A stretch of DNA of 64,000 nucleotides from Cupriavidus pauculus (GTDB lineage Bacteria > Pseudomonadota > Gammaproteobacteria > Burkholderiales > Burkholderiaceae), in NCBI RefSeq assembly GCF_003854935.1, contig NZ_CP033969.1:186001-250000 (forward strand), in the 5' to 3' direction. Positions 39,958 to 42,996 of this stretch are shown piece by piece (position 1 is the first letter of the stretch; each line of letters begins with the position of its first letter). Under the pieces are notes generated by a model, which was not told the origin of the DNA, did not search any database, and worked only from the letters and a program-made list of their open reading frames with translations. The translations under genes and the position numbers were made by a program.

Positions 39958-41343
39958 TCAGAATGTCGCCAGCTTGGCCTGCACGCCGGCGATTTCCACG
40001 TCGGCGGTACCGTCCGCCAGATGGGCCTCGACGATGCTGCCCGGGCGCAGTTCGTGCGGCGAGCGCAGCGCCCGGCCGCGCGCATCGAGCAGCACGGCGT
40101 AGCCGCGTTCCAGCGTGCGCTGGGGCGCCAGCAGCTCCAGCGCGCCGGCCGCGCGCGCCAGCCGCTGGGTGTCGCGCTCGTGGCGCCGCTCCAGCGCCAT
40201 GTCCATGCGCGCGGCAAGGCGGTCCAGCGTCTGCTGTTGCAGGGCGGCGTCCGGCTTGCAGGCGCGCCAGCGCATCGCCAGCACGTCGTGGCGGTGGCGC
40301 TGCGCCGACACCGTGTCGCGCAATGCCGCCCGCAGGTGTCGCGCCAGATTGTCGACGTGCGCCCGGCGCTCCTGCAACTGGGCCTGCGGGCTGCGCAACT
40401 GGCGCGTCAGCCATTGCAGGTGCTGCGCGCGGCGGGCGAGCTGGCGGTCCATGCATTGCGCCAGCGCGTCGCGGGCGCGGCGGGCGGCCTGCAGCAAGTG
40501 GTCGCGGTCGGGGCTGACCAGCTCGGCGGCACCGGTGGGCGTCGGTGCGCGCACGTCGGCCACGAAATCGGCAATCGTCACATCGGTCTCGTGGCCCACA
40601 CCGGCCACCACGGGCACACGGCTGCGGGCGATGGCGTGGGCCACCACTTCCTCGTTGAACGACCACAGGTCCTCGATGCTGCCGCCGCCGCGGCACAGGA
40701 TCAGCACGTCGCATTCGGCCCGCTCGCTGGCCACGTCGAGCATCGCCGCGATCTTGTCGGCGGCACCGGCGCCCTGCACCGGCACCGGATAGACGATGAC
40801 CGGCACGTGCGGCGCGCGCCGCCGCAGCGTGGTCAGCACGTCGCGCATGGCCGCCGCCTGCAGCGACGTGACCACGCCGATCGTGCGCGGATGGCGCGGA
40901 ATCGGCCGCTTGCGTGCGCTATCGAACAGACCGGCCTGCGCGAGCTTGTCCTTGAGCCGCAGGAACGCTTCGTAGAGGTTGCCCAGGCCGGCGCGGCGCA
41001 TGGCTTCCACGCCAAGCTGCAACTCGCCGCGCGCCTCGTACATCGACACCACGGCGCGTACCTCCACGGCCTCGCCCTCGCGCGGCGTGAAGTCGACATG
41101 CTGGTTGCGGCCGCGGAACATCACGCAGCGGATCTGCGCGCGGGCGTCTTTCAGCGAGAAATACCAGTGGCCACTGGCCGCGCGCGTGAAGTTCGAGATT
41201 TCGCCCCGCACCCACGCCAGCGGAAAGCTGCGTTCGAGCACGCCGGCGATGGCATGGTTCAGTTCGCTGACCGGGATCACGTCGCGCGTGCGCGAAGGCG
41301 CCTGGGACGGCGCAAAACGCGAAAGGTTCTCGTTCTCTGGCAT
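39958..41343 (-). CDS. xseA: Exodeoxyribonuclease VII large subunit
   Basis: 461 residues: N-terminal OB-fold (about 20-115, [17 protein letters not shown]), catalytic core with [37 protein letters not shown] and [28 protein letters not shown], then a long coiled-coil helix region (about 275-400) and a short C-terminal beta segment (GYAVL). The nuclease degrades single-stranded DNA with XseB, which is not encoded here. The gene's upstream side is the unusual 1-kb repeat region. Confidence 0.96.
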
Positions 41344-41774
41344 GGGGCACGGCCGCGCAGGCGGCGTGGGATGGACATGTCCACAGCATAACCGCTATGT
41401 CAAGAGGCATCGCGCGGTGCACACGGCAGGCCCCGGAATCCGCATGAATCCGTACAAGCCTTTGATTCTGTTGAAGATTCGCCCCGGTCCAAAAAACAGG
41501 CAATGTAAGAGAAAACCTTACGCGTCAACGACTTACCAAAATCCGGGGACGCTTGTTCACAAAGTTATCCACAGAAGCTTTGGATAATGGATTTGTCAAG
41601 CGTCGGATCTGTGGACAACGTATACGTGACAGGCCAGAGCCGGCTGTGGTAACGGCCTGGGGCCCCGGATTGTCGACCGCGACGCACAAGGCACGTGAGC
41701 CTACGTTTGCACAAAATTTAGGCAGAAACGTATACGTCGTTATGGATCAACGGGTTAGCCCGCTTCTCCCCGGT

Positions 41775-41821
41775 TTATCCACAACCGATCCACAATCCTT
41801 TCCTGCCCCGGTGTGGAAAGC
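41775..41821 (+). repeat. DnaA-box-like module 1
   Basis: TCCACA-N5-TCCACA-N17-TGTGGAAAGC over 47 bp, the first core being part of a perfect TTATCCACA. Core starts 41778, 41789 and 41812 (intervals 11 and 23). Confidence 0.85.
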
Positions 41822-41935
41822 GTCGCCCCGCCAGCAGGCTGTTTGGCGCCCGGATCGCGGCGTGCGATTGCCCAATAATTAGGCACGAAACAGCTTTTCG
41901 TTTCGGATCAATGGTTTACGTAGAATCTTCAAAGG

Positions 41936-41982
41936 CTTTCCACAGCCCGTCCACAGCCGTGTCCCGTGCAAATGTGGAAAGC
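41936..41982 (+). repeat. DnaA-box-like module 2
   Basis: Same 47-bp geometry: core starts 41939, 41950 and 41973 (intervals 11 and 23). Here the outer arms GCTTTCCACA and TGTGGAAAGC are a perfect 10-bp inverted repeat. Confidence 0.85.
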
Positions 41983-42139
41983 TGCCCATTCAGGGGCTGG
42001 GAGCGCCCGCAGACCGTCCGCAAACCCTGTTCGGCAAGGAAAGCGGGCGCCACATGGCCGCTTTGCCCCGCTTGCCCAAAAAACAAGCAATCGACCCGAG
42101 GCCCTTTGCAATCAAAGGTTTACGCGACCTTTCCGAAGG

Positions 42140-42186
42140 CTGTCCACAACCGGTCCACAATCCTGTCCCGGTTATGTGTGGAAAGC
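42140..42186 (+). repeat. DnaA-box-like module 3
   Basis: Same 47-bp geometry: core starts 42143, 42154 and 42177 (intervals 11 and 23). Internal sequence ACAACCGGTCCACAATCC is close to module 1. Confidence 0.85.
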
Positions 42187-42375
42187 CGCAGACAGCGGCC
42201 GGTGTGCGTGGCTTGCCGCGCTGGCGGCGGGCGGGTTAGAGTGGCGCCTGCAATTTTTCGAGCATCGCCGGTGCGGCGCGCGTTGGGCGCGACCCGCATC
42301 AAAGGCTGCCACGTCGTTCGTGCTTCAAGCCGTCCATTTCGGGTCTGTCGTCTACGTAGAATTTCGGGGGTCCAC

Positions 42376-42996
42376 GTGTTTTCCATCATTCAAGCGGCCG
42401 GCTGGCCGATCTGGCCGCTGCTGCTGGCCTCGGTCATCGCGCTGGCGCTGATCGTCGAACGCTTCATCTCCCTCAAGCGCAGCAAGATCCTGCCGCCGCG
42501 GCTGTACGAGGAGGCGCTTTCCGCCGCCCAGCAGCGCAAGGCCACGCCCGAGGTGGTCAACACGCTCGAAAAGAATTCACCGCTGGGCCGCGTGCTGGCC
42601 GCCGGCCTGCGCCACGTGGTGCTGCAGCCGCAGACGTCGCGCGACGCCGCCAAGGATGTGGTGGAAGAAGCCGGCCGGGTGGTGGCGCACGACCTGGAGC
42701 GCTACCTGAACGCGCTGGGCACGATTGCGTCGGTGGCGCCGCTGATGGGCCTGCTGGGCACCGTGATCGGCATGATCGAGATCTTCGGCAGCCAGGGCGG
42801 CACCGGCGCCAACCCCGAACAGCTGGCGCACGGCATCTCGGTGGCGCTCTACAACACGGCCTTCGGCCTGATCGTGGCGATTCCGGCCCTGATCTTCTGG
42901 CGCTACTTCCGCCGGCTCGTGGACGACTACGTGGCCGAGCTGGAATTCCGCGCCACCGCGTTCCTGGACGCCATCCTGCCGCAGCGGCGGGCCTGA
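42376..42996 (+). CDS. exbB: ExbB/MotA/TolQ-type proton channel protein
   Basis: 206 residues from a GTG start preceded by GGGGGT. Three transmembrane helices (about 8-30, 105-130, 150-175); the family stretch VAPLMGLLGTVIGMIEIFGSQGG and the last-helix ALYNTAFGLIVAIPALIFWRYFRR are typical of ExbB. With ExbD it uses the proton gradient to energise TonB-dependent uptake or related envelope processes. It is followed by exbD after 18 bp. No tonB gene is near; the lpxK neighbour suggests an envelope role. Confidence 0.9.
   Translation: MFSIIQAAGWPIWPLLLASVIALALIVERFISLKRSKILPPRLYEEALSAAQQRKATPEVVNTLEKNSPLGRVLAAGLRHVVLQPQTSRDAAKDVVEEAGRVVAHDLERYLNALGTIASVAPLMGLLGTVIGMIEIFGSQGGTGANPEQLAHGISVALYNTAFGLIVAIPALIFWRYFRRLVDDYVAELEFRATAFLDAILPQRRA

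Follow-up and report, generated by a model that had tools for sequence, protein, structure and literature searches.

Why should the gap between xseA and exbB in Cupriavidus pauculus hold a regular array of sites that resemble the box of DnaA, the protein that starts chromosome copying? The gap occupies 1,034 bp (41344-42377, 58% G+C) of the 64,000-nucleotide stretch analysed here (the window) and adjoins xseA (39958-41343, minus strand). Pfam identified exonuclease VII large subunit, ExbB, ExbD and LpxK around it, in agreement with the neighbours named in an earlier, sequence-only reading of this DNA, and the four named loci whose XseA is closest to that of the window, at 87-92% identity in the best segment, belong to Cupriavidus (three) and to a strain that carries the label Ralstonia sp. 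25mfcol4.1. That reading had counted twelve TCCACA/TGTGGA hexamers in the gap, far above chance, and the excess was borne out: 2000 dinucleotide shuffles gave a mean of 0.41 and a maximum of 4, and it is confined to the gap, with 20 hexamers observed in the whole window against 21.3 expected. The three modules TCCACA-N5-TCCACA-N17-TGTGGAAAGC begin at 41778, 41939 and 42143 with exact 11- and 23-bp intervals, as had been claimed; none of the 2000 gap shuffles contained even one, and the 6.18-Mb genome holds just these three. The two perfect DnaA box cores, TTATCCACA, were likewise found, at 41565 and 41775. Searches of plasmids and of Rfam with the gap as query returned no match. Features beyond those of the earlier reading are a triple of boxes of the DARS type (41553-41587), sites for Fis and IHF, and a conserved CTGTCC between boxes 2 and 3 of the modules. 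Near the xseA start, TGTCCACAGCATAACCGCTATGTCAA (41377-41403) carries a hexamer 187-188 bp before the box II hexamer in 22/22 genus gaps reaching that far; its reverse strand reads TTGACA, and it perhaps belongs to the xseA promoter.

The reactivation of DnaA at DARS sites has been elucidated in E. coli, and its distribution has been followed mainly within the gammaproteobacteria. In the MG1655 record, DARS1 and DARS2 both run from box I over 14 bp to an inverted box II and over a further 12 bp to box III, and the triple at 41553..41587 (minus strand), termed unit 0, has this same anatomy. Box III, TTGTTCACA (41553-41561), and box II, TTATCCACA (41565-41573), point rightwards, and box I, TTTGGATAA (41579-41587), is inverted; the stretch reads TTGTTCACA-AAG-TTATCCACA-GAAGC-TTTGGATAA, with 9-mer starts spaced by 12 and 14 and box I opposite II and III, which is the geometry of DARS1 and DARS2, identical in spacing, on the opposite strand. 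When mismatches of the three 9-mers against TTWTNCACA were summed, unit 0 scored 2 (one each in box III and box I), DARS1 2 and DARS2 3, and at up to 3 mismatches unit 0, located some 210 bp upstream of where xseA starts, was the single match in the 6.18-Mb genome. The accessible parts of two reviews describe one spacing shared by DARS1 and DARS2, a box I that faces the other way from II and III, and a head-to-head pair that is essential (PMC5742627, PMC10380432). Unit 0 is thus likely a DARS member by anatomy. DARS2 (rppH-mutH gap) is like it in the 14/12 bp three-box core with inverted box I, in its distance from oriC and in carrying sites for IHF and Fis beyond box III, but differs in that the present array lies at xseA and has further units in Cupriavidus and Ralstonia; DARS1 (bioD-uvrB gap) has a core of identical geometry, but in a scan its gap lacked an IHF consensus and showed no exact Fis consensus near the core. 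A further DnaA-box-like site, TTGTCCACA read on the minus strand (41610..41618), stands 42 bp past box II, hexamer to hexamer, and is retained in part of the genus only.

By comparison of upstream sequences, the core is old and has been kept upstream of xseA in many betaproteobacterial families, far beyond the genus. A draw of 120 genomes from the order, 118 of them with xseA, yielded 59 upstream stretches, roughly one for each family and some additional ones (f27, at 427 bp, was too short, f9 gave a weak XseA match and f51 none, and f7 was undrawn). DARS geometry was present at up to 3 mismatches in 33 of 58 loci, representing 29 of 47 families, and at up to 5 in 43, the score exceeding 5 in 15/58. 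Every core at up to 3 mismatches has the orientation seen in the window, the opposite orientation scoring 4 at best. Among 1408 combinations of spacing and orientation, the 12/14 geometry came first with its 33 loci, against a mean of 0.1 and runners-up of 15 and 10 loci, both of which contain the 14-bp head-to-head step; shuffled loci gave 0/58 cores in each of 20 rounds. A set of named loci, partly of the same species (78 usable of 80 kept, from 562 found), had the core in 39/78 at up to 3 mismatches and 49/78 at up to 5, or 27/62 and 34/62 once the first 16 close kin were removed. At the stricter threshold it was found in 10/13 Nitrosomonas loci and in all 8 loci listed by name for Nitrosospira, Nitrosovibrio, Thiobacillus, Sulfuricella and Sideroxydans, and it was missing from 15/15 usable loci of Methylotenera and other Methylophilaceae type; Polynucleobacter keeps boxes III and II and has lost box I (6/6 loci), and the Nitrotoga loci are split, two with a core and two without.

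Genome-wide, the core pattern matched at least once in 10/12 genomes of other families, and of 62 loci checked among model matches, 14 lay at xseA or exbB and 48 elsewhere. One genome of another family (G030) has five DARS-type cores, two at xseA, a second pair elsewhere and one single (C1:1427779-1428027, 5094449-5094948 and 1644942). The cores of the order are often joined by a fourth box, which precedes box III by 9 or 11 bp (21/14 geometry in 10/58 loci, 23/14 in 15/58), the 23/14 form containing the same 11-bp step that leads from box 1 to box 2 in the triplets. On another contig of the window's own genome, at C3:1693521-1693543, between response regulator and phospholipase-D-like genes, two perfect DnaA boxes face each other across the 14-bp step of DARS, but a third box was absent at up to 1 mismatch.

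The three modules, units 1-3, are built differently. Unit 1 (41775..41820, plus strand) comprises TTATCCACA at 41775, CGATCCACA at 41786, a lattice slot CTTTCCTGC at 41798 and an inverted TGTGGAAAG at 41812; unit 2 (41936..41981, plus strand) has CTTTCCACA at 41936, CCGTCCACA at 41947, the slot GTGTCCCGT at 41959 and the inverted TGTGGAAAG at 41973; and unit 3 (42140..42185, plus strand) has CTGTCCACA at 42140, CGGTCCACA at 42151, the slot CTGTCCCGG at 42163 and the inverted TGTGGAAAG at 42177. Their 9-mers start at 0, 11, (23) and 37, against 0, 12 and 26 in the core, and the 11/23 modules are therefore without the 12/14 spacing of DARS. The slot holds CTGTCC, conserved at 1.80 bits, and because its start falls exactly 12 bp past box 2 and 14 bp ahead of box 3, which are the DARS steps, units 1-3 look like a DARS core in which the slot of box II has been replaced. 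In Ralstonia and other kin, where units were found by the exact triplet, CTGTCC was present in 12/13 units and the remaining one had CTATCC. The possibility that the slot is a plain weak DnaA box was tried and dropped: its 9-mer has 5 mismatches to the box in 62/68 genus units, and the mean of 4.93 was no better than the 4.57 found one base on, so that it is conservation and lattice position that speak for the slot. As the units were picked by their box hexamers, the information content of the hexamers is uninformative; the Fis and IHF sites and CTGTCC lie outside the picking.

Predicted sites for IHF and Fis, called by match to the consensus alone (consensus from the accessible parts of PMC4585315 and PMC8682772), are laid out around the boxes in fixed phase. 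In each further unit a Fis site is followed after 36 bp by an IHF site and after another 33 bp by the first box hexamer: GCACAAAATTTAGGC (41709..41723, exact) and GATCAACGGGTTA (41745..41757, plus strand, 1 mismatch) in unit 1, GCCCAATAATTAGGC (41870..41884, exact) and GATCAATGGTTTA (41906..41918, plus strand, 1 mismatch) in unit 2, and GCCCAAAAAACAAGC (42074..42088, 1 mismatch) and AATCAAAGGTTTA (42110..42122, plus strand, exact) in unit 3. Across the 68 triplet units of 23 genus gaps, a site with at most 1 mismatch occurs at -33 from the first hexamer for IHF in 67 (33 exact) and at -69 for Fis in 65 (30 exact), and both are present with 0-1 mismatch in all 13 units from Ralstonia and other kin. 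Mean information in units 1-3 is 1.23 bits for Fis and 1.37 bits for IHF; three spacer stretches have 0.20-0.27 bits and three others 0.59-0.88. Unit 0 has a Fis-like site, GTCCAAAAAACAGGC (41487..41501, 1 mismatch), and a weak IHF-like site, CGTCAACGACTTA (41523..41535, plus strand, 2 mismatches), at the same distances as in units 1-3, the former kept at up to 1 mismatch in 18/22 genus sequences and the latter at up to 2 in 20/22; it also has an outer IHF site in reverse, CAAGCCTTTGATT (41455..41467, minus strand), which matches YAANNNNTTGATW exactly and is exact in 22/22 genus sequences at -98/-97 from box III.

The outer part of this scaffold can be followed through the order. The Fis consensus was exact at -66/-65 in 16/42 core loci, any other pair of offsets reaching 2 at most, an IHF site with up to 1 mismatch lay at -100 to -96 in 29/42 core loci with enough flank, and 19/42 had both, one mismatch being allowed for Fis; the position of the weak IHF-like site of unit 0 showed no order-wide enrichment. 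A Fis homologue was found in the genome itself (41% identity) and in 7/7 other genomes tried. Predicted IHF and Fis sites thus stand beside the core, as at DARS2, and are phased in both genus and order, but here the sequence is core-Fis (-66)-IHF (-98), whereas E. coli DARS2 follows the order core-IHF-Fis, with IHF-like sites from -59 to -87 in a consensus scan and an exact Fis match beyond them. According to the accessible text of PMC4245941, IHF and Fis bind DARS2 in E. coli and activate ADP release, and the placement of their sites matters.

Within the genus the gap was matched in 22/23 relatives, the one miss (G012) being a genome that is 54% complete, and with the window's own gap included, 22 of 23 gaps have three triplets and one has two (in one of the 23, L011, which begins at the edge of a contig, exbB is the only neighbour present). 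Among 300 genomes drawn from the family, a model of the triplet matched three or four times in all 41 listed genus members, own genome included, two to four times in 16 listed members of a sister genus (g40; E below 1e-16), and twice in one genome of a further genus (g20; E below 1e-16), the remaining matches among those listed having E values of 5e-7 or weaker; a model of the core was concordant for the 41 genus members and 15 listed genomes of the sister genus. The core pattern itself was at the array in 17/18 same-genus genomes, four of the 17 having one additional match elsewhere, and a reversed-pattern control gave 0 in all 31 genomes. The 11/23 spacing is exact across the genus. In the genomes sampled, triplets were confined to Cupriavidus, Ralstonia and near kin; in the named set none lay beyond the first 16 loci, each of them from Cupriavidus, Ralstonia or an unnamed member of the Burkholderiaceae. 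The array of Cupriavidus and Ralstonia is, by its sequence, the core joined by further units, three as a rule, that share the predicted scaffold.

A second or relocated replication origin would also bring DnaA, IHF and Fis sites together, since all three occur at oriC (accessible part of PMC4585315), and DnaA, IHF and Fis are used at the oriC of E. coli; we regard this as very improbable. The array core lies at C2:227.55 kb and dnaA at C2:788.6 kb, 561 kb apart, and the GC skew, which is noisy with local reversals in 20-kb samples, switches from minus to plus at about C2:880-890 kb, where a cluster of DnaA boxes is found; this places the array some 660 kb from the switch, about 18% of the contig taken as the whole replicon. 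The array is therefore not the origin, and its core boxes are head-to-head, in which it also differs from oriC. In 11 of the 12 further genus genomes inspected, the distance from dnaA to the array is 572-809 kb (G003 counted across the contig end; G171 and two g40 genomes left out), a position that, for the genus, is distant from the origin and conserved, as with DARS.

The remaining explanations have to account for the same sites. E. coli datA has five boxes with an IHF site and brings about ATP-DnaA hydrolysis, and the many boxes of the array, with an IHF-like site in every unit, would suit a sink that titrates DnaA or a datA-like element that with IHF promotes such hydrolysis, the conserved CTGTCC slot (12 bp after box 2, 14 before box 3) then perhaps being a site for ATP-DnaA alone. 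This is unlikely, however, as plain titration needs neither exact head-to-head spacing nor Fis sites, and the E. coli datA region shows neither geometry, its best fit to 12/14 having 6 mismatches and that to 11/26 having 9. The suggestion of a datA- or DARS-like site is supported on sequence grounds, and DARS is favoured over datA because of the core geometry of unit 0, the lack of either geometry in datA, and conservation beyond the genus. Control of an xseA and/or exbB promoter by DnaA, IHF and Fis would fit a core about 210 bp upstream of xseA that stays there across families, but we consider it improbable: repression needs neither four units over 700 bp nor DARS geometry, a site of this type is missing from the guaB-xseA gap of E. 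coli, where the best fit has 10 mismatches, and no sigma-70-like promoter was found in 41250-42450 against 0.4 in shuffles, a weak test. That the array encodes a structured leader RNA or a row of hairpins is hardly credible, even though the folds of units 2 and 3 score better than those of shuffles (z -3.8 and -3.2 on the plus strand, -2.7 and -3.7 on the minus), unit 0 has a z of -2.1, and stem pairing and covariation are slightly above shuffles (8/500 reach each; 2/500 for cells changed on both sides). Unit 1 has z values of -1.3 and -0.3, Rfam gave no match, six of nine pairs are invariant, and paired DnaA boxes explain the pairing pattern equally. The earlier preference for protein binding over an RNA stem holds, with the caveat of that slight excess of pairing: the two pairs that vary fail to form in 13 and 21 of the 47 sequences, and protein sites of three classes are conserved in phase.

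We therefore consider it probable that the locus is a DARS2-like, DnaA-reactivating site governed by IHF and Fis and expanded by three variant units. Against a DARS site stand the 15/58 loci of the order that exceed 5 mismatches, the missing core of the Methylophilaceae-type loci and the lost box I of Polynucleobacter, the single mismatches in boxes III and I of unit 0, an order of IHF and Fis unlike that of E. coli DARS2, and the cores that some genomes carry away from xseA. Units 1-3 moreover deviate from the 12/14 spacing and lack a strong box II, part of the head-to-head pair called essential in the accessible part of PMC10380432. DnaA, IHF and Fis would be expected to bind at the array, and ADP to be released there: by bending the DNA, IHF and Fis would bring the ADP-DnaA bound to boxes I-III together head to head, ADP would be lost, and the apo-DnaA released would bind ATP, raising ATP-DnaA before initiation. 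Units 1-3 might load and hand over more DnaA, as an amplifier, or set a threshold. More tentatively, the array could be a composite nucleotide switch for DnaA, in which the old betaproteobacterial DARS core is combined, in Cupriavidus and Ralstonia, with IHF/Fis-gated units of a new class whose conserved, non-consensus CTGTCC slot, lying on the same DnaA lattice, is filled only by ATP-DnaA, shutting the site off when ATP-DnaA is high; on and off control would then lie within one array.

The first comparison of DARS sequences is reportedly that of Fujimitsu in 2009. In the accessible parts of their texts, Kasho 2014 described the DARS2 core as conserved among gammaproteobacteria related to E. 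coli (PMC4245941), a 2017 review put DARS conservation at E. coli-proximal beta or gamma (PMC5742627), and a 2023 review spoke of similar sequences in many proteobacteria (PMC10380432). A search of the literature for DARS or DnaA reactivation in betaproteobacteria and for DnaA boxes at xseA found no report of the xseA locus in the accessible text (subscription papers were outside its scope), and the accessible parts of a 2025 paper on DnaA titration (PMC12371093) and of a paper on methylation in Ralstonia (PMC11460718) held nothing on the xseA-exbB locus. The array likely constitutes a new variant of DARS-type site, unit 0 being likely of the known kind by anatomy. With a core at a fixed locus in many betaproteobacterial families, the recharging of DnaA becomes testable in laboratory strains, Cupriavidus necator H16 being one. 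The array of Cupriavidus and Ralstonia would be a natural multi-unit DARS in bacteria whose genomes comprise at least two large replicons.

GTWWAC, known from Ralstonia and Burkholderia as a motif that is methylated (accessible parts of PMC5390034 and PMC7364216), was considered as a component of the array and dropped, the gap of the window having four and 8/23 genus gaps none; its mean density in genus gaps is 1.15 per kb, which does not depart far from the 0.65 that composition would give. In C. metallidurans CH34, similarly, about 90 kb separate dnaA from the skew switch, which has three perfect boxes next to it (accessible part of PMC2864759). The segment at C2:889.1-890.8 kb, outside the window, with the GC-skew switch and perfect DnaA boxes, is likely the origin of chromosome 1, and its 1.7 kb hold 14 GTWWAC sites (12 of them GTATAC), compared with a density of 0.071 per kb over the 464 kb that were sampled; a control of the origin resembling that by GATC and SeqA may merit consideration there.
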